A stretch of DNA of 64,000 bases from Arthrobacter sp. H16F315 (lineage in GTDB: Bacteria > Actinomycetota > Actinomycetes > Actinomycetales > Micrococcaceae): contig NZ_JAMXSS010000002.1 of NCBI RefSeq assembly GCF_024124825.1, positions 1,116,001-1,180,000 of the forward strand. The letters run 5' to 3'. The notes beneath the pieces were generated by a model. The model was not told the DNA's origin. It saw only the letters and a program-made list of their open reading frames with translations, and searched no databases. Position numbers and translations under genes: made by a program. This document shows, piece after piece, positions 17,746 to 29,940 of this stretch (its first letter is position 1; each line of letters starts with the position of its first letter).

Positions 17746-17779
17746 TTTTTAGATACGACAGGTTTTTAGATACGACAGG
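17746..17779 (+). repeat. Perfect 17-bp tandem duplication upstream of the TPP riboswitch
   Basis: The unit TTTTTAGATACGACAGG occurs twice head-to-tail (17746-17762 and 17763-17779), about 30 bp before the riboswitch. Each copy holds TAGATA, which could act as a -10 element, so the duplication may have doubled a promoter element. No good -35 was recognised. Confidence 0.8.
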
Positions 17780-17810
17780 GGAGCGCCGCCGTCGGGCATC
17801 ACCGGGGAAA

Positions 17811-17900
17811 TCCGGGGAGACCACAGGTGGGCGCTGAGAGTGCGGACAGCCGCAGACCCTCGAACCTGATCCGGTTAGTACCGGCGCAAGGGAGTCGAGT
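17811..17900 (+). promoter_or_regulatory. TPP riboswitch (THI element)
   Basis: The conserved thiamin-pyrophosphate aptamer cores are all present in order: GGGGAG (17814-17819), GCTGAGAG (17833-17840), ACCCTCGAACCTGATCCGG (17856-17874), and TACCGGCGCAAGGGAG closing the aptamer. It controls the ykoEDC operon that follows. TPP binding represses thiamin import and synthesis genes in this class. Confidence 0.95.
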
Positions 17901-17904
17901 TCTC

Positions 17905-17970
17905 AGAGTGGCCGGAGCGGCAGCGGAAGCTGCAGGCCCGGGCCACTCTCCCCTCCTGTTCCTCAGGAGG
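17905..17970 (+). promoter_or_regulatory. Riboswitch expression platform with Shine-Dalgarno-sequestering hairpin
   Basis: Two hairpins follow the aptamer. The first pairs AGAGTGGCC (17905-17913) with GGCCACTCT (17941-17949). The second pairs CCTCCTG (17952-17958) with CAGGAGG (17964-17970), and the latter contains the ribosome-binding site AGGAGG of ykoE (ATG 17976). No oligo-T follows either stem, so translational rather than transcriptional control is inferred. Confidence 0.7.
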
Positions 17971-21288: not shown

Positions 21289-22812
21289 ATGACTCAACAG
21301 ACTGCTGAACACGTTGGTGCGTTACTCCGCGATGCCCGCGGGCAAAAAGGCTGGACCCAGGGCCAGCTGGCCGCCGAGCTGGGAACCAGCCAGAGCGCCA
21401 TCGCCCGAATGGAACAAGGCAAGCAGAATCTGAGCCTGAAAATGATCCAGCGTCTTGAGGCTATTTTTGACCGGAGCATCGTTAAGGTGGGGCGGCCCGC
21501 CATGACGCATCTGCGGGTGGAAGGCGGCCGGACCCTGTCCGGTTCGGTGGACGTCAACAGCAGCAAAAACGCAGGTGTCGCCCTGCTGTGCGCCAGCCTG
21601 ATCAACCGCGGCACCACCACCCTGCGCCGGCTCGCTCGCATCGAAGAAGTGAACAGGATCGTCGAGGTGCTGACGAGTATCGGCGTCGAATGCGTTTGGC
21701 TCAACGCCAGTGATCTTCAGATCCGGCGCCCCGCGGCCCTGGACCTTGACGCGATGGACATCGAGGCGGCCCGCCGGACCCGCAGCGTCATTATGTTGCT
21801 GGGCCCGCTCCTGGACGAATCCGCCGAATACCGGCTGCCCTATGCCGGCGGCTGCGACCTTGGCACCCGCACGGTGCAGCCGCACATGCAGGCGCTGCGC
21901 CAGTTCGGCCTCAGCGTGGACGCCAAATCCGGCTACTACGCCGTGCAGGCGCCGCCCGCAGACGCGGCGGACCGGTCCTTTGTGCTCAGCGAACGCGGCG
22001 ACACCGTTACCGAAAACGCCATCATGGCAGCCGCCCACCGCGGCGGGACCACCGTCATCCGCAACGCCAGCCCCAACTACATGGTGCAGGACCTTTGCTT
22101 CTACCTGGAGATGCTGGGGGTCCGGATCGACGGCGTAGGAACCACCACGCTGAAGATCACCGGCCGCCCTTCCGTCGACGTCGATGTTGAATATTTCCCG
22201 TCCGAAGATCCGATCGAGGCGATGAGCCTGATCACCGCCGGCATTGTCACAAACTCGGAAGTGACCGTCCGGCGCGTCCCGATCGAATTTATGGAAATCG
22301 AGCTCGCGACGCTGGAACAGATGGGTCAGCAGCTGGAAGTGTCCGGGGAGTATCTGGCCCGCAACGCGCGCACCCGGCTGGTGGATGTCACCACCCGGCC
22401 CTCGGAACTGCGGGCACCCGAGGACAAGATCCACCCCATGCCGTTCCCCGGGCTGAACATCGACAACCTGCCCTTCTTCGCGGTCATCGCCGCGAATGCC
22501 CAGGGCCAGACGATGATCCACGACTGGGTCTATGACAACCGGGCGATCTACCTGACGGAGCTGAACAAACTCGGCGCTCAGGTGCAGCTGCTGGACCCGC
22601 ACCGGATCTACGTCAACGGCCCCACCAAATGGCGTGCGGCAGAGGTGGGCTGCCCTCCGGCCCTCCGGCCCGCTGCTTGCCTGCTGCTGGCGATGCTCGC
22701 CGCGCGCGGCGTCTCGGAACTGCGCAATATCTATGTGATCGAACGTGGCTACGAGGACTTGGCCGAGCGGCTCAACACCCTCGGCGCCAAAATCGAGTAC
22801 TTCCAGGACTGA
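21289..22812 (+). CDS. XRE helix-turn-helix domain fused to a MurA-type enolpyruvyl transferase
   Basis: 507 residues. Residues 6-66 form a Cro/C1-type HTH (ARGQKGWTQGQLAAELGTSQS). From about 72 to the end is a UDP-GlcNAc 1-carboxyvinyltransferase (EPSP synthase-like) fold. MurA active-site positions are kept: SSKNAG with Lys93-Asn94 (MurA K22-N23), GGCDLGTRTV with Cys189 (MurA C115), an Asp in FPSEDPIEA (MurA D305) and YDNRAIYLTELNKLGA (R397 region). It therefore looks catalytically able to transfer enolpyruvate to UDP-GlcNAc, the first step of peptidoglycan synthesis. No normal ribosome-binding site precedes the ATG; TATTTT seven bases upstream suggests a leaderless mRNA. Whether it is the cell's main MurA or a regulated paralogue is not visible. 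Confidence 0.9.
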   Translation: MTQQTAEHVGALLRDARGQKGWTQGQLAAELGTSQSAIARMEQGKQNLSLKMIQRLEAIFDRSIVKVGRPAMTHLRVEGGRTLSGSVDVNSSKNAGVALLCASLINRGTTTLRRLARIEEVNRIVEVLTSIGVECVWLNASDLQIRRPAALDLDAMDIEAARRTRSVIMLLGPLLDESAEYRLPYAGGCDLGTRTVQPHMQALRQFGLSVDAKSGYYAVQAPPADAADRSFVLSERGDTVTENAIMAAAHRGGTTVIRNASPNYMVQDLCFYLEMLGVRIDGVGTTTLKITGRPSVDVDVEYFPSEDPIEAMSLITAGIVTNSEVTVRRVPIEFMEIELATLEQMGQQLEVSGEYLARNARTRLVDVTTRPSELRAPEDKIHPMPFPGLNIDNLPFFAVIAANAQGQTMIHDWVYDNRAIYLTELNKLGAQVQLLDPHRIYVNGPTKWRAAEVGCPPALRPAACLLLAMLAARGVSELRNIYVIERGYEDLAERLNTLGAKIEYFQD

Positions 22813-26058: not shown

Positions 26059-26104
26059 GACGGATCTCCTTCTTTCACGCTTGCAGCTCGAATGGTCGAT
26101 ATGC

Positions 26105-26189
26105 CGAGTACTCACCTGAGGCACCCCGCCGCGAAAGGGAGGGTTGCCGACCGGCCAGTCAGGGCTTGGCGCCGGTTCTCATTACTCCC
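26105..26189 (-). promoter_or_regulatory. SAM-IV-like riboswitch upstream of DUF1737-rhodanese-metZ
   Basis: Read on the minus strand, the leader matches the SAM-IV aptamer known mainly from actinomycetes. In order it has GGGAGTAATGAG, CGCCAAGCCC, TCGGCAACCCTCC, CGCGGCGGGGTGCC and CAGGTGAGTACTC. The ends pair (GAGTA with TACTC) as helix P1. It ends about 45 nt before the start codon at 26058, leaving room for a translational switch on AAGGAGAT. SAM is expected to repress the operon. Confidence 0.85.
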
Positions 26190-26565
26190 AAAGAACGTAA
26201 CACCTGCGACGCCGGACCGCACGGCGGCGGCCGTCATGTTAAGGAGCGGGGTGGAAACGGAGGTTTGTTCAAAAGCCATTCGCCAGCGTTCATGCCAGCG
26301 TCCCCATCCACGTACTCGGGGGATTGCACACAGGTACAAACCCCCGGGGCCTCGAATTCGAACCGGGGAGGCTTTCGGGTAGTTCCTACTCGGGACTTTT
26401 GGTAGTCGGCGCGACTTTACTGAAGGACCAGCTCCAAGGACGTCACCAGGCCCTAAAACGCCATCCGAGGATCGCTCAGTTTTGCGGCCGGCTCTGATGA
26501 TCCAGCCAGTTAGGCCGGTGCGGCGCCGTCGACTGCCGGGCCTTTAACAAGGGAAGGGGATTGCC
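26190..26565. other. Intergenic region with candidate DosR-like response-regulator boxes
   Basis: 376 bp without a gene, between the divergent SAM-riboswitch leader and the small membrane protein gene. It must hold two promoters. At 26372-26408 are overlapping repeats: GTAGTTCCTAC (a perfect 4-3-4 dyad at 26379-26389), TCGGGACT (26390-26397) and GGTAGTC (26401-26407). TCGGGACT equals the left half of the mycobacterial DosR box; the right half is degenerate. A dyad CTCGAATTCGAACC lies just upstream. No structured RNA was recognised. Confidence 0.35.
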
Positions 26566-26733
26566 ATGGCCGCGATATATGTTCTACTCATTATTCTCCT
26601 GAGCACGGCCTTCGCCGCTGTTATCAGCACGCCCGGTCGCCAGGTAACGGAAGGGTTGATTCCGAACCGGCCCTCCGGTCCGGATGCCCGCGGCGATGGC
26701 CGGGGCCGGGCTGCCAGGACGGCACAGCGGTGA
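26566..26733 (+). CDS. Small single-pass membrane protein upstream of the ATP-grasp gene
   Basis: 55 residues from ATG 26566 with AAGGGGA in front. An N-terminal hydrophobic helix (IYVLLIILLSTAFAAVI) is followed by a hydrophilic Gly/Arg-rich tail of about 35 residues. Its TGA overlaps the GTG of the ATP-grasp gene by 4 bp, which argues that it is a translated gene and coupled to it. It has no recognisable family. It could be an anchor or regulatory subunit for the ATP-grasp or glycosyltransferase. Confidence 0.6.
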   Translation: MAAIYVLLIILLSTAFAAVISTPGRQVTEGLIPNRPSGPDARGDGRGRAARTAQR

Positions 26734-27674
26734 GGCCGCGCGTATTGGTCACCGGCGCCTGCGGCCCTGCGGGCAAGGCCATCGCGGCCCAACTGAAAGC
26801 GCGCGGCATTCCTGTCCTCGGGACGGATATCCGCGAGCTGCCGGACGGGGCAGGATTCACGGTGCTCCCCGTCCCGCACGCGACGGACGCGGAACGGGTA
26901 TCAGCACTTCGGCGACTGGTTAGCCAGGAAGGCATCAATCTGGTCATTCCCACGGTCAGCGAGGAACTGCCGCAGCTCGCCGCGTTCCGGGCGGCGTTCG
27001 GAGCGGACGTGCGTGTGATGATCGGCGATCCGGGCCCGGTGGCGCTGGCCCATGACAAGCTCTTTACGGCCTGGCAACTACATGCAGCGGGCGTTCCCGT
27101 GCCCCGGTTCGGTGTGCCCAGCGACTTCGCCGATGCGGACGCTGCAATGGCCGCGCTGGGCGGACCGGTCGTCGTCACACCCCGGGCGTCCCGGGGCGGC
27201 CGGGGCGTGACAGTCGTCGATGGCGGCACGGAAATGGACTGGCAGCGCCTGCCGGACAGCCACATCGTCCAGGAATTCATCCCCGGAAACGAGTATCGGC
27301 CCATGGTTTTCGGCACACCGGCGCACAACGGTGCCGCGCCGTTTGTGGTTGTTGTGGCGAAGGTTGGGCCGGCGGACCGCATCCTTGGCAACGCCGTGAC
27401 CACTCGCCGGGCCGAGGCGGGCGAAGCGATCGACGTGGGCAACGTGGCGATGGCTGCGGTCCGCGCGCTGGGCCTCACGGGGCCTGTGGAGGTGGACGTT
27501 CGTCGACGCGCCGACGGGACACCCGTGGTCCTGACGGTGAACGCCCGATTCGGATCGAACAGCGGACTCGCGCCGGAGCTGCTCGATGCCGTGCTGGCAT
27601 CCTTTATCCTGCCCTCCTTCAACCCGGCGTCCTTCCGGCACTGCATGGGGCCGTTCGCCGATGCCATGGGTTGA
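26730..27674 (+). CDS. ATP-grasp domain protein (carbamoyl-phosphate synthase large subunit-like)
   Basis: 314 residues. The N-terminus RPRVLVTGACGPAGKAIA is a Rossmann-like pre-ATP-grasp domain. VVVTPRASRGGRGVTVV carries the ATP-grasp Lys/Arg and glycine loop. HIVQEFIPGNEYRPMVF and LTVNARFGSNSGLAPEL supply the Mg-ATP acidic/Asn positions. It should activate a carboxylate as acyl-phosphate and join it to an amine or other nucleophile. It is coupled to the small membrane gene (4-bp overlap) and ends just before the GT2 gene, hinting that it prepares or decorates the glycosyltransferase product. Substrates are unknown. Confidence 0.8.
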   Translation: MRPRVLVTGACGPAGKAIAAQLKARGIPVLGTDIRELPDGAGFTVLPVPHATDAERVSALRRLVSQEGINLVIPTVSEELPQLAAFRAAFGADVRVMIGDPGPVALAHDKLFTAWQLHAAGVPVPRFGVPSDFADADAAMAALGGPVVVTPRASRGGRGVTVVDGGTEMDWQRLPDSHIVQEFIPGNEYRPMVFGTPAHNGAAPFVVVVAKVGPADRILGNAVTTRRAEAGEAIDVGNVAMAAVRALGLTGPVEVDVRRRADGTPVVLTVNARFGSNSGLAPELLDAVLASFILPSFNPASFRHCMGPFADAMG

Positions 27675-27675
27675 A

Positions 27676-28956
27676 ATGAACGTCACCGCAGCGCTCCCGG
27701 CGGCCCAGCTCCCGCTCGTCCTCCTCGGGCTGCCGGTCCTGGTGTTCGGGCTGGTGAAACTGCTCGTTGTGCCGCTTGCCGTCTGGTTCGAACTTCGGAG
27801 CGCCCATCGCCGACGCCGCGAAGTCCCCACGTTGTTCGATGCGTGGCCCCGTGTGTCGATAATTGTCCCGGCATTCAACGAGGCAGCCGCTATTGAGGAC
27901 TGCGTCCGATCGATTCAGCGCACCCGCTACGACCGGTACGAGCTGATCCTGGTGGATGACGGTTCAACGGACTGCACCGCCACGATTATGTCGGCTCTCG
28001 CTGCCAGGGATCCCCGGATTAAGGTTCTGGCGCAGGCCAACGCCGGCAAGGCGGCAGCCTTGAACTTCGGGATCCGCAACGCCGCCGGCGAGGTCCTGAT
28101 GTTTATCGATGCGGACGTCATTCTTTCCCGGCACACCGTCGAGATGATGCTCCGCGGCTTTGACGACGAGCGAACCGGCGCGGTCTGTGGTGATGGCCGG
28201 CCGGTGAAGGTCAAAGGGGTCCAGGGCCGGGTGCTGGCTTTCACCGGCCACATCGGCGGCGGCCTGGTCCGGCGCGCCCTGGCGGTACTCGGCTGTATAC
28301 CCACCGACGTGGGTGCCATCGGCGCCTTCCCGCGAAGTGTGCTCGAACACGTGGGACTGTTCCGGCAGGACACGGTGGGCGAAGACCTGGAACTGGCCTG
28401 GCGGGTTCACAAGGCAGGCTACCGGGTGGTATTCGCCCCGAGGGCTGTTGTCCTGGCGGAGTCTCCCTTGACCGTTGGCGGCCTCTGGCGCCGACGGGTC
28501 CGCAGGTACCGCGGCCTGTTGCAGACCATGGCCTTGCACAAAGATCTGATCGGCAATCTCCGGTACGGACCGTTCGGAACGCAGCTGGTGTTCCACGCCA
28601 TTACCATGGTGGTCCTTCCGGCGGTTCAGATCCTGTTGCTCCTCGGCGTGGCCGTCCTCCTTGCGGCCGGCTACCGCCCGCCGGCCGGCGTCGACTGGGT
28701 GGTCCTGGCCTGGTTGGGCCTGCTTGTGTCGTTGGTCCTGCCGGTGTGCGCGCTGGGCGCCAACCGGGCGTGGAAAGACTTGCGGCATGTATGGGCGCTG
28801 CCGCTGATGCCGTTGTATTCGTTGTTTATGAGCCTGGCCGTGATCGCCGCACTGGTCCAGGAAATCCGGGAGAGGGTACTCCGCCGGAACAATCCCGTCC
28901 GAACGGGATCAGGTACCGCCGGCGCCCAGCGGCCACGCGCGCAACTCGGGGCCTGA
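27676..28956 (+). CDS. Membrane GT2 family glycosyltransferase
   Basis: 426 residues (an in-frame ATG at 27661 is an alternative start). One N-terminal helix precedes a GT-A domain: VSIIVPAFNEAAAIEDCV, LILVDDGSTDCT, VLMFIDADVIL (DxD), VGEDLELAWRVHKAGY (ED acid base). RRRVRRYRGLLQ follows, similar to the RxxRW motif of processive synthases. Three or more C-terminal helices follow. This is the architecture of hyaluronan/poly-GlcNAc/cellulose-type polymerases. It is predicted to polymerise or transfer sugar at the membrane. The linkage to an ATP-grasp enzyme is unusual. Confidence 0.87.
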   Translation: MNVTAALPAAQLPLVLLGLPVLVFGLVKLLVVPLAVWFELRSAHRRRREVPTLFDAWPRVSIIVPAFNEAAAIEDCVRSIQRTRYDRYELILVDDGSTDCTATIMSALAARDPRIKVLAQANAGKAAALNFGIRNAAGEVLMFIDADVILSRHTVEMMLRGFDDERTGAVCGDGRPVKVKGVQGRVLAFTGHIGGGLVRRALAVLGCIPTDVGAIGAFPRSVLEHVGLFRQDTVGEDLELAWRVHKAGYRVVFAPRAVVLAESPLTVGGLWRRRVRRYRGLLQTMALHKDLIGNLRYGPFGTQLVFHAITMVVLPAVQILLLLGVAVLLAAGYRPPAGVDWVVLAWLGLLVSLVLPVCALGANRAWKDLRHVWALPLMPLYSLFMSLAVIAALVQEIRERVLRRNNPVRTGSGTAGAQRPRAQLGA

Positions 28957-28977
28957 AAGCTGCCCCGATCACTGTGC

Positions 28978-29940
28978 CTACCCGATGGTGGCGTACAGCG
29001 CGTTGAGCTCCGCGGTGAGTTGCTTGCGCTGTTCCGGGGTGCCGATTTCCCTGCTGTCGATGTGGTTGACGGGCGCCAGCAGCCGGATGCTCGAGATGAG
29101 CCACACGGCGTCGGCGTCGTAGAGGTCGCGGGGCTCAAGCGGTCCGTAGCCCAGCTCCCAGCCGGCGGCCTTCGCCGCGGTAAACAGGGCACCCTGCGAG
29201 GTGCCGGGCAGGATCCCGCTGTCGAGCTGCGGGGTTATGAGCCGCCGGAGGGTCCGCACGCCGCCGGCACCGTCGTCGGCGGTTTCCAGATGGGCAAGCA
29301 GGACAGTCGACGTCGGGCCCTCCAGGACCTTGCCGTCCGCGGAGGTGAAGATAACGTCGTCGGCACCCTGGGCATGCGCGTAGCGCAGCGCGGCCATGTT
29401 GACGGCGTAGGAGAGCGTCTTGGCGCCCATGAGCAGCCAGGGCGCCCGTTCAGCGACTTCACTGTCATAGCCGCGGTCCAGCAGGATGACGTCGATCCCG
29501 GTCTCGCGTTGGCGCCGGCCGATGGCGCCGGGGACGGAGGCCTGGACCCAGCAGGTTGGCCCGGCGGCGCCTTCAACGCCCCGGGTCACGAGCAGTTTAA
29601 CAACGAGTTCGTCGTCCGCTGAGTCTCCGGCGCCGGGTACGTGCTGGCCCCGGTACTCGCTGATGGCCGTCGTGATCGCCCGGCGCCAGCGATCCTCCGC
29701 CGGGAGGTCAAGCTCCAGCAACCCGGCGGAACCGGCCAGCCGATTCAGGTGCGCCTGAAGCTTCCGGGGCTGCCCGCCAACGGCCAGCAGCGACTCGAAA
29801 ACACCGTCGCCGCGAGTGGCCCCTTGGTCCGTCGCCATCAATTGCGGCTTCGTGGCATCGGCCACCCGGCCGCCGTCGAACGCGGTATCCAGGAAGACCA
29901 GCACCGGGGCCGGGCCGGGAACACCGGCAGGAGAATTCAT
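28978..29940 (-). CDS. pabC: Aminotransferase class IV (aminodeoxychorismate lyase-like)
   Basis: 320 residues of PLP fold-type IV. The motifs are TRGDGVFESLLAVGG, a Lys in LLMGAKTLSYAVNMAALRYA (PLP Schiff base), ADDVIFTSADGKVLEGPTSTV and LPGTSQGALF. 4-Amino-4-deoxychorismate lyase makes p-aminobenzoate for folate. The presence of a PabB gene 1.6 kb away (31526-33586) supports this over D-amino-acid or branched-chain aminotransferase. It is separated from pabB by the oppositely oriented cls gene. Confidence 0.8.
   Translation of the reverse strand: MNSPAGVPGPAPVLVFLDTAFDGGRVADATKPQLMATDQGATRGDGVFESLLAVGGQPRKLQAHLNRLAGSAGLLELDLPAEDRWRRAITTAISEYRGQHVPGAGDSADDELVVKLLVTRGVEGAAGPTCWVQASVPGAIGRRQRETGIDVILLDRGYDSEVAERAPWLLMGAKTLSYAVNMAALRYAHAQGADDVIFTSADGKVLEGPTSTVLLAHLETADDGAGGVRTLRRLITPQLDSGILPGTSQGALFTAAKAAGWELGYGPLEPRDLYDADAVWLISSIRLLAPVNHIDSREIGTPEQRKQLTAELNALYATIG

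Follow-up and report, generated by a model that had tools for sequence, protein, structure and literature searches.

A Probable Decayed PIG-L/ATP-Grasp/GT2 Operon in Arthrobacter and the Likely Second Role of Its Ligase-Like Protein

In a stretch of 64,000 nucleotides from Arthrobacter sp. H16F315 (contig NZ_JAMXSS010000002.1, positions 1,116,001 to 1,180,000; hereafter the window), three consecutive open reading frames (ORFs) encode a 55-residue product, an ATP-grasp protein and a membrane glycosyltransferase of family 2 (GT2). This cassette is likely a decayed copy of a four-gene operon, whose ATP-grasp protein was probably kept in a second role. Judged from the alignments, the 55-residue ORF is the stub of a membrane-anchored PIG-L de-N-acetylase of about 300 residues and not a gene of its own. 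The ATP-grasp and GT2 proteins of the window have lost residues that are kept in relatives with the whole operon; therefore, the pathway has very probably ceased to work and its product is probably no longer made. Of the whole finding, the ligase that was kept is of greatest interest.

The 55-Residue ORF as the Stub of a PIG-L Gene

In sister loci, the first gene at the same place has about 300 codons, encodes a PIG-L (PF02585) de-N-acetylase and shares the same 4-bp overlap with the ATP-grasp gene. For instance, the PIG-L gene of locus L012 (301 codons) lies at the position of the 55-codon ORF with the identical overlap, and its product has two N-terminal hydrophobic segments; the 55-mer has one, at residues 2–20 (by simple hydropathy). 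All five first-gene proteins of relatives that were scanned gave a PIG-L family score and none of the five a score for carbohydrate esterase family 4 (CE4), the other neighboring genes being scanned in part.

In the BLASTN comparison of the window with L012, the upstream element matches, followed by the start region (68 of 92 bases, covering the leader and the first codons), and then nothing before the start of the ATP-grasp gene. At the protein level, about 18 residues match and only the N-terminus aligns, namely to the N-terminus of PIG-L proteins. The 37 residues beyond the hydrophobic segment are without counterpart, and about 250–280 codons of the relatives' PIG-L gene are absent.

A protein search with the 55-mer, which reaches only proteins of similar length sharing exact words, returned a single cluster of three sequences, 98% identical. 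No comparable transmembrane ORF was recognized by eye upstream of the ATP-grasp gene in other PIG-L-less loci. A conserved family of small membrane proteins was rejected on these two grounds. An earlier note, made from the window's letters alone, had described a small membrane protein gene in a tightly packed cassette. The packing holds, with an overlap of 4 bp at 26730–26733 and a gap of 1 bp at 27675; the separate gene does not, given that its product aligns solely with the PIG-L N-terminus and has homologs in that one cluster only. In locus L055, a different ORF of 38 codons has a PIG-L-like start (by eye) and overlaps the ATP-grasp start likewise; it is possibly an independent cut of PIG-L.

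Genome G336 (locus L047), marked as the same species, has the identical arrangement, the 55-codon ORF being 100% and the other two ORFs 99.4% identical; therefore, an assembly error does not account for the structure of the cassette. A search of the window's genome for another such PIG-L gave one distant match only (34 bits); the assembly is 95.6% complete and has the window on a contig of 3.8 Mb.

The Whole Operon in Relatives

The ATP-grasp gene was found in 50 of 206 genomes of the genus and in 10 of 197 genomes of the family sample. Besides the window, the 54 loci compared come from the 49 further genomes of the genus that gave a match and from four genomes of the rest of the family; 26 of the loci contain PIG-L and 28 do not. 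A fourth gene for a lipoprotein-like product of ~340–390 residues accompanies 23 of the 26 PIG-L-bearing loci and none of the 28 PIG-L-less ones, and it is absent from the window. Of the five fourth proteins scanned, two, both from Chloroflexota, scored 26.2 and 24.9 bits for GHL10, less than its cut-off of 27.9 bits, and the remaining three matched nothing. The model of the L014 copy (predicted local distance difference test [pLDDT] 92.9) has the BpsB hydrolase domain 6au1 (E 9.5e-13, TM 0.77) and PgaB 4p7o (E 3.7e-12, TM 0.75) as top folds.

In named genomes, 57 loci were found. After the exclusion of 15 from genomes that were already covered and of six others (L138 and L140, with no PIG-L and an altered motif; L146 and L147, which are distant; L112 and L122), 36 PIG-L-bearing, nonredundant loci were kept. 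The order PIG-L, ATP-grasp, GT2 is found in 23 of them; in ten, PIG-L is encoded on the opposite strand at a distance of about 3 kb, and three differ in order, so the link to the operon is looser in these 13. The fourth gene is present in 23 of the 36, once as a partial copy. Three Gram-negative loci (L127, L135 and L137) contain ATP-grasp, adjacent to it a probable outer-membrane barrel, a tetratricopeptide repeat (TPR)-PIG-L fusion and GT2; the fusion was seen by Pfam in the two loci scanned for it, L127 and L135, and the barrel is a reading, with no Pfam match for the one scanned.

Carriers include Cellulomonas, Isoptericola, Flexivirga, Pseudoclavibacter, Corynebacterium (as metagenome-assembled genomes [MAGs]), Chloroflexota, Nitrospirota, a Nitrosomonadales MAG and two Methanosarcina MAGs. 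The Methanosarcina loci group with Chloroflexota in the tree (GC content of 37% in the one measured) and may be due to a binning error. The coupling of a carboxylate-amine-ligase type enzyme with a polymerase-like GT2, as proposed earlier, is borne out, and the core genes stand together in several phyla. The trio as it was drawn did not survive the synteny check: among the 50 genomes of the genus with the ATP-grasp gene, two have the 55-mer form, each belonging to the window's species, and the conserved partner is the PIG-L de-N-acetylase.

Some loci carry more than one copy. L048, L050, L051 and L052 have an intact operon and a PIG-L-less ATP-grasp gene about 5 kb apart, flanking metZ. In L019 (8648–16722), one intact ATP-grasp, a diverged partial ATP-grasp (31%, which failed the length filter) and two PIG-L–GT2 pairs stand in tandem. 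A relative of the ATP-grasp with 50.5% identity over 92% is encoded on a 1-Mb Arthrobacter plasmid (NZ_AP024649.1, 817570–818454). It is the best of 131 records in the plasmid search, and the others among the 12 matches listed are distant (27–35%); P0064 is named as plasmid-borne as well. Given the plasmid relatives, the operon may be mobile.

Motifs of the ATP-Grasp and GT2 Proteins

The second ORF is an ATP-grasp protein (PF02655, 45.2 bits against a cut-off of 23.2). Its AlphaFold model has a mean pLDDT of 86.7, and the best fold matches of the protein are the carbamoyl-phosphate-synthase-like 2pn1 and the amide-forming Ddl, PylC and L-amino-acid ligases. From all these ligases the window copy differs by a lost Lys and a lost Glu. 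At position 150, Lys is found in 62 of 62 PIG-L-linked relatives, and at position 269, Glu in 61 of the 62 with Asp in the remaining one (L143); the window has Thr at both. By alignment with carbamoyl-phosphate synthetase, we take position 150 to be phosphate-binding and position 269 to be a metal ligand. The window copy thus has the fold of catalytically competent ligases and keeps Asn 271, the basic phosphate-binding residue and the Glu ligand being absent; its catalytic residues have probably been lost.

The third ORF is a GT2 (PF00535, 118.9 bits against a cut-off of 23.3) with four hydrophobic segments (simple hydropathy). In the PDB, the profile of this family hits chondroitin, cellulose and hyaluronan synthases (HAS). 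QRVRW, an instance of the QxxRW motif of processive synthases, is retained throughout the 27 GT2s compared from PIG-L-bearing loci; the nine compared from PIG-L-less loci, some of them partial, have all lost it. No second close GT2 was found in the genome, where the next match scores 54 bits.

Residue Loss Accompanies the Loss of PIG-L

At 34 near-invariant positions of the ATP-grasp, none of the 62 PIG-L-linked rows has more than one change, and 32 of 32 PIG-L-less copies have 2–14, the 14 belonging to the truncated frame L090. Because the PIG-L-linked set itself served to define these positions, its low counts arise partly by construction, and leave-one-out (34–38 positions) is the fairer control. 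It gave 0–1 changes in 59 of the 62 rows, two in a Propionibacteriaceae row and four and five in two Nitrospirae rows. A stricter catalytic set (K150, R155–R158, E269 and N271) is intact in 60 of 62 PIG-L-linked rows versus three of 30 PIG-L-less ones; these 30, like the tree, leave out L047, a near copy of the window, and the truncated L090.

In the tree, the window is on its own branch within a set that also contains intact copies. Independent pairs agree in three of three cases on supported branches for the 34 positions, and in two of three, with one undecided, for the strict set. In the site-A clade without PIG-L (site A being the window's own), a derived GVCATLGENS replaces EVNARFGANS in most members.

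A second site (site B), between a sigma-factor-like gene and ppc, holds 12 PIG-L-less loci (L018, L020 and L081–L090). Position 271 has changed from Asn to Glu in eight of them, EVNARFG becoming EVEARFG in most.

Persistence of the ATP-Grasp and Purifying Selection

PIG-L is missing from 28 of the 50 genus genomes with ATP-grasp. Choosing genomes by their ATP-grasp could bias the picture toward persistence of that gene, and reverse searches were therefore made; they found ATP-grasp missing from three of 25 genomes with PIG-L. Of these three, G293 was viewed over 19 kb, which include PIG-L, distant GT2s only and no ATP-grasp; G225 and G343 have PIG-L matches of 41–43% and no ATP-grasp match. 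G309 has a broken GT2 alone.

The ratio of nonsynonymous to synonymous rates (dN/dS) of the ATP-grasp is 0.10–0.23 in the ten members of the site-A PIG-L-less clade (45 pairs) and 0.16–0.26 in the seven members of the site-B clade (21 pairs), by a simple counting method. The lowest value in 600 neutral simulations, which assume a single mutation model, is 0.45. Medians are 0.134 and 0.139 in intact groups and 0.20–0.21 in looser PIG-L-less groups; in the first run, pairs with dS of at least 2 or undefined were skipped (48 of 78 kept in one intact group). The values indicate purifying selection on the PIG-L-less ATP-grasps of the two post-loss clades. Residue loss and low dN/dS coincide in these clades; the window itself offers 14 differences only.

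A Near-Palindrome Upstream of the Operon

A near-palindrome upstream of the cassette (table 1) recurs in relatives at site A. It has 0–2 mismatches in eight of eight PIG-L-linked copies and, among the 20 PIG-L-less ones, 0–4 in 19 and five in one, the consensus having been derived from the very loci scored. Control stretches of the same loci (n = 279) have 5–9 mismatches, three of them five. Simple shuffles average about seven, with single shuffles of 3–4 in four rows. The element was not found upstream at site B nor in the loci of other genera. A recognizable form of the operon's upstream element persists at the window's site, and it could act either as an operator in DNA or as a hairpin in RNA.

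The window's copy is the sole exact match in the genome. A regulon under the palindrome was rejected: the genome has seven matches with at most two mismatches, one of them exact, against ten in the control.

Proposed Mechanism and Its Alternatives

The intact operon would comprise a membrane-anchored PIG-L de-N-acetylase, an ATP-grasp ligase, a processive membrane GT2 and an exported PgaB-hydrolase-like lipoprotein. PIG-L enzymes de-N-acetylate amino sugars, and the PgaB-fold hydrolase of the known system acts on de-N-acetylated poly-beta-1,6-N-acetylglucosamine (PNAG). Families, folds and operon logic suggest each chemical step: the GT2 of intact relatives most likely polymerizes an N-acetylhexosamine glycan at the membrane, PIG-L would free amino groups on it, the ATP-grasp would join a carboxylate (an amino acid or another acid) to the freed amines as an amide, and the lipoprotein would trim the exported polymer outside the cell. 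In the window, a deletion has taken all of PIG-L except its first hydrophobic segment, the lipoprotein gene is missing and key residues of the remaining two proteins have changed. Purifying selection on the ATP-grasp in PIG-L-less relatives, together with the old upstream element at the site, makes a second role probable. The ligase was probably kept as a pseudoenzyme or repurposed protein, which perhaps binds a sugar, a nucleotide or a partner without ligating.

That the trio is a working system, with the 55-mer as a PgaD-like helper that regulates the GT2 and an amide-modified polysaccharide as the product, is very unlikely. Its tight packing, the single hydrophobic segment and the identity of the ORF in two genomes of the species would suit such a system, and the stub does retain a start and the stop-start overlap, by which the ATP-grasp gene could be coupled to it in translation. 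Against this stand the one cluster of near-identical homologs (from a search of limited reach), the alignment confined to the PIG-L N-terminus, the 37 unmatched residues, the failure to see such an ORF in other PIG-L-less loci by eye and the altered active sites of both the GT2 and the ATP-grasp. A pseudogene in progress, that is, neutral decay of the whole cassette with frames still open through GC-rich DNA (few stops) and the youth of the decay, is unlikely too. The deleted PIG-L, the missing fourth gene and the motifs lost in both remaining proteins speak for it, as do the relaxed GT2 of four relatives and the few window–G336 substitutions with their weak pattern; it is at odds with the dN/dS of the two post-loss clades, neither of which includes the window, all below the neutral minimum, and with the upstream element kept at site A. 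It is equally improbable that intact relatives make a short glycolipid or small molecule and not a polymer. The order of the chemistry (glycosyltransferase, de-N-acetylase, N-acylation) is that of mycothiol and Nod factors, and the window's GT2 matches the NodC model with 73 bits, under the cut-off of 550; the QxxRW motif of intact copies, the PgaB-hydrolase-like lipoprotein of most PIG-L-bearing family loci, and the probable barrel and TPR-PIG-L of Gram-negative loci point to an exported glycan.

Several observations weigh against a decayed operon with a retained ligase as set out above. The PIG-L-less L018, L081 and L082 keep the strict catalytic set and the PIG-L-linked L132 and L143 do not. 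L112 and L122, which were left uncounted, have an intact ATP-grasp motif and no PIG-L in a short or cut stretch; they may be counter-examples, or PIG-L may lie beyond the contig end. The gains and losses of PIG-L are few (parsimony 5, with at least three on well-supported branches), and the independent pairs are too few for significance. Single PIG-L-less pairs reach a dN/dS of at least 0.44 (L013–L055, across clades). The GT2 of four decaying relatives has 0.36–0.50, which indicates relaxed selection. Between the window and G336 there are eight synonymous and six nonsynonymous differences (p = 0.019, or 0.047 with a milder null), which is thin evidence; the intact neighbor metZ has three and five, respectively, and therefore this test has little power. 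Retention of the window's own genes by selection is weakly supported. As to the product, the best NCBIfam match of the window's GT2, PgaC/IcaA (TIGR03937), scores 188.4 bits, under the equivalog cut-off of 422.3, the window's copy being the one scored. At E ≤ 0.01, no PDB sequence matches the fourth protein, whose predicted fold is of the TIM-barrel type, with beta-amylases and other hydrolases as next matches. A PNAG-like product is, on this low GT2 score, the lack of a PDB sequence match and the TIM-barrel neighbors, a resemblance only.

Known Systems and Significance

The pga and ica operons (PgaABCD, IcaADBC) synthesize PNAG. The operon resembles them in its processive membrane GT2 with PgaC/IcaA as the best match, a de-N-acetylase, a lipoprotein whose predicted fold best matches the PgaB/BpsB hydrolase domain and, in Gram-negative loci, TPR and probable outer-membrane barrel proteins. 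It differs in that the deacetylase is PIG-L and not CE4, an ATP-grasp ligase is added and the gene order is another; moreover, the window's GT2 is far under the PgaC cut-off and the hydrolase-like protein lacks a PDB sequence match. In Escherichia coli, yaiO, yaiP and yaiS encode an outer-membrane protein, a GT2 and a PIG-L, a similar combination; that set is not known to have an ATP-grasp gene or an assigned product. The mycothiol and bacillithiol pathways (MshA-B-C and BshA-B-C), the former defined by a GT4 and a cysteine ligase like an aminoacyl-tRNA synthetase, likewise proceed by a glycosyltransferase, a PIG-L de-N-acetylase and then an amide on the freed amine. Here, in contrast, there are a GT2 and not a GT4, an ATP-grasp ligase, membrane anchoring and an exported hydrolase-like protein.

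In the open literature of PubMed Central, subscription papers being mostly outside the search, no paper was recognized as describing a PIG-L/ATP-grasp/GT2 operon, and none was found that joins yaiP, yaiS and deacetylase. In an exopolysaccharide study (PMC7314104), PA1766 of Pseudomonas aeruginosa, a predicted ATP-grasp gene, is among the suppressor hits. It is plausible that the intact operon is a variant of PNAG-like systems not found in the searched papers. The wider proposal, an undescribed type of operon for an amide-re-acylated exopolysaccharide whose ligase alone, stripped of its catalytic residues, was repeatedly kept in Arthrobacter upon breakdown of the operon as a selected pseudoenzyme with a new binding or regulatory role, is put forward tentatively, as possible and somewhat short of likely.

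If true, ligase-made amides on an amino-sugar polymer would be an added chemistry for PNAG-like systems in several phyla, possibly archaea, and would give a role to "carbamoyl-phosphate synthase-like" proteins adjoining GT2 genes. The decay series would be a natural experiment in which the deacetylase is lost, the ligase active site is lost and the scaffold survives, that is, a tractable case of an enzyme becoming a pseudoenzyme. Loss of the ligase active site together with the deacetylase is expected if the deacetylase makes the ligase's substrate. The case also cautions that a neat small ORF in a packed operon may be the stub of a larger gene.

Features and Surroundings of the Locus

Table 1. 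Features of the cassette, in positions of the window
Feature	Position	Strand	Details
Near-palindrome CGGGTAGttcCTACTCGGG, candidate operator or short RNA hairpin	26376..26394	+	Followed by TTTACT at 26416–26421
Putative stub of membrane-anchored PIG-L de-N-acetylase gene	26566..26733	+	55 aa; alignment with intact relatives confined to the first hydrophobic segment (~18 codons)
ATP-grasp ligase-fold protein, altered active site	26730..27674	+	314 aa, GTG start; K150T, D254E, E269T versus PIG-L-linked relatives
Codon 150 of ATP-grasp	27177..27179	+	Thr
Codon 269 of ATP-grasp	27534..27536	+	Thr
Membrane GT2, PgaC/NodC/HAS-like	27676..28956	+	426 aa, ATG start; QRVRW to RRVRR, VDADG to IDADV, VSGN to DVGA

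The cassette is flanked on one side by divergent genes for DUF1737, rhodanese-like and O-succinylhomoserine sulfhydrylase (metZ) proteins and on the other by genes for aminodeoxychorismate lyase and cardiolipin synthase. No sigma-70-type promoter was found in the scan of 26100–29000. An S-adenosylmethionine riboswitch (SAM-IV, 86.8 bits) at 26072–26186 of the minus strand precedes the DUF1737, rhodanese-like and sulfhydrylase genes. A known riboswitch ahead of the cassette was rejected, SAM-IV being the only one there and on the opposite strand.

Further upstream, an ORF of 507 residues (21289–22812, plus strand) putatively joins, as read from its sequence, a helix-turn-helix of XRE type (about 75 residues) with a MurA-like enolpyruvyl transferase in one protein; proteins of 93–94% identity are encoded at the corresponding positions of L012 and L013. 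A thiamine pyrophosphate (TPP) riboswitch of 60 bits is located at 17767–17910 of the plus strand.

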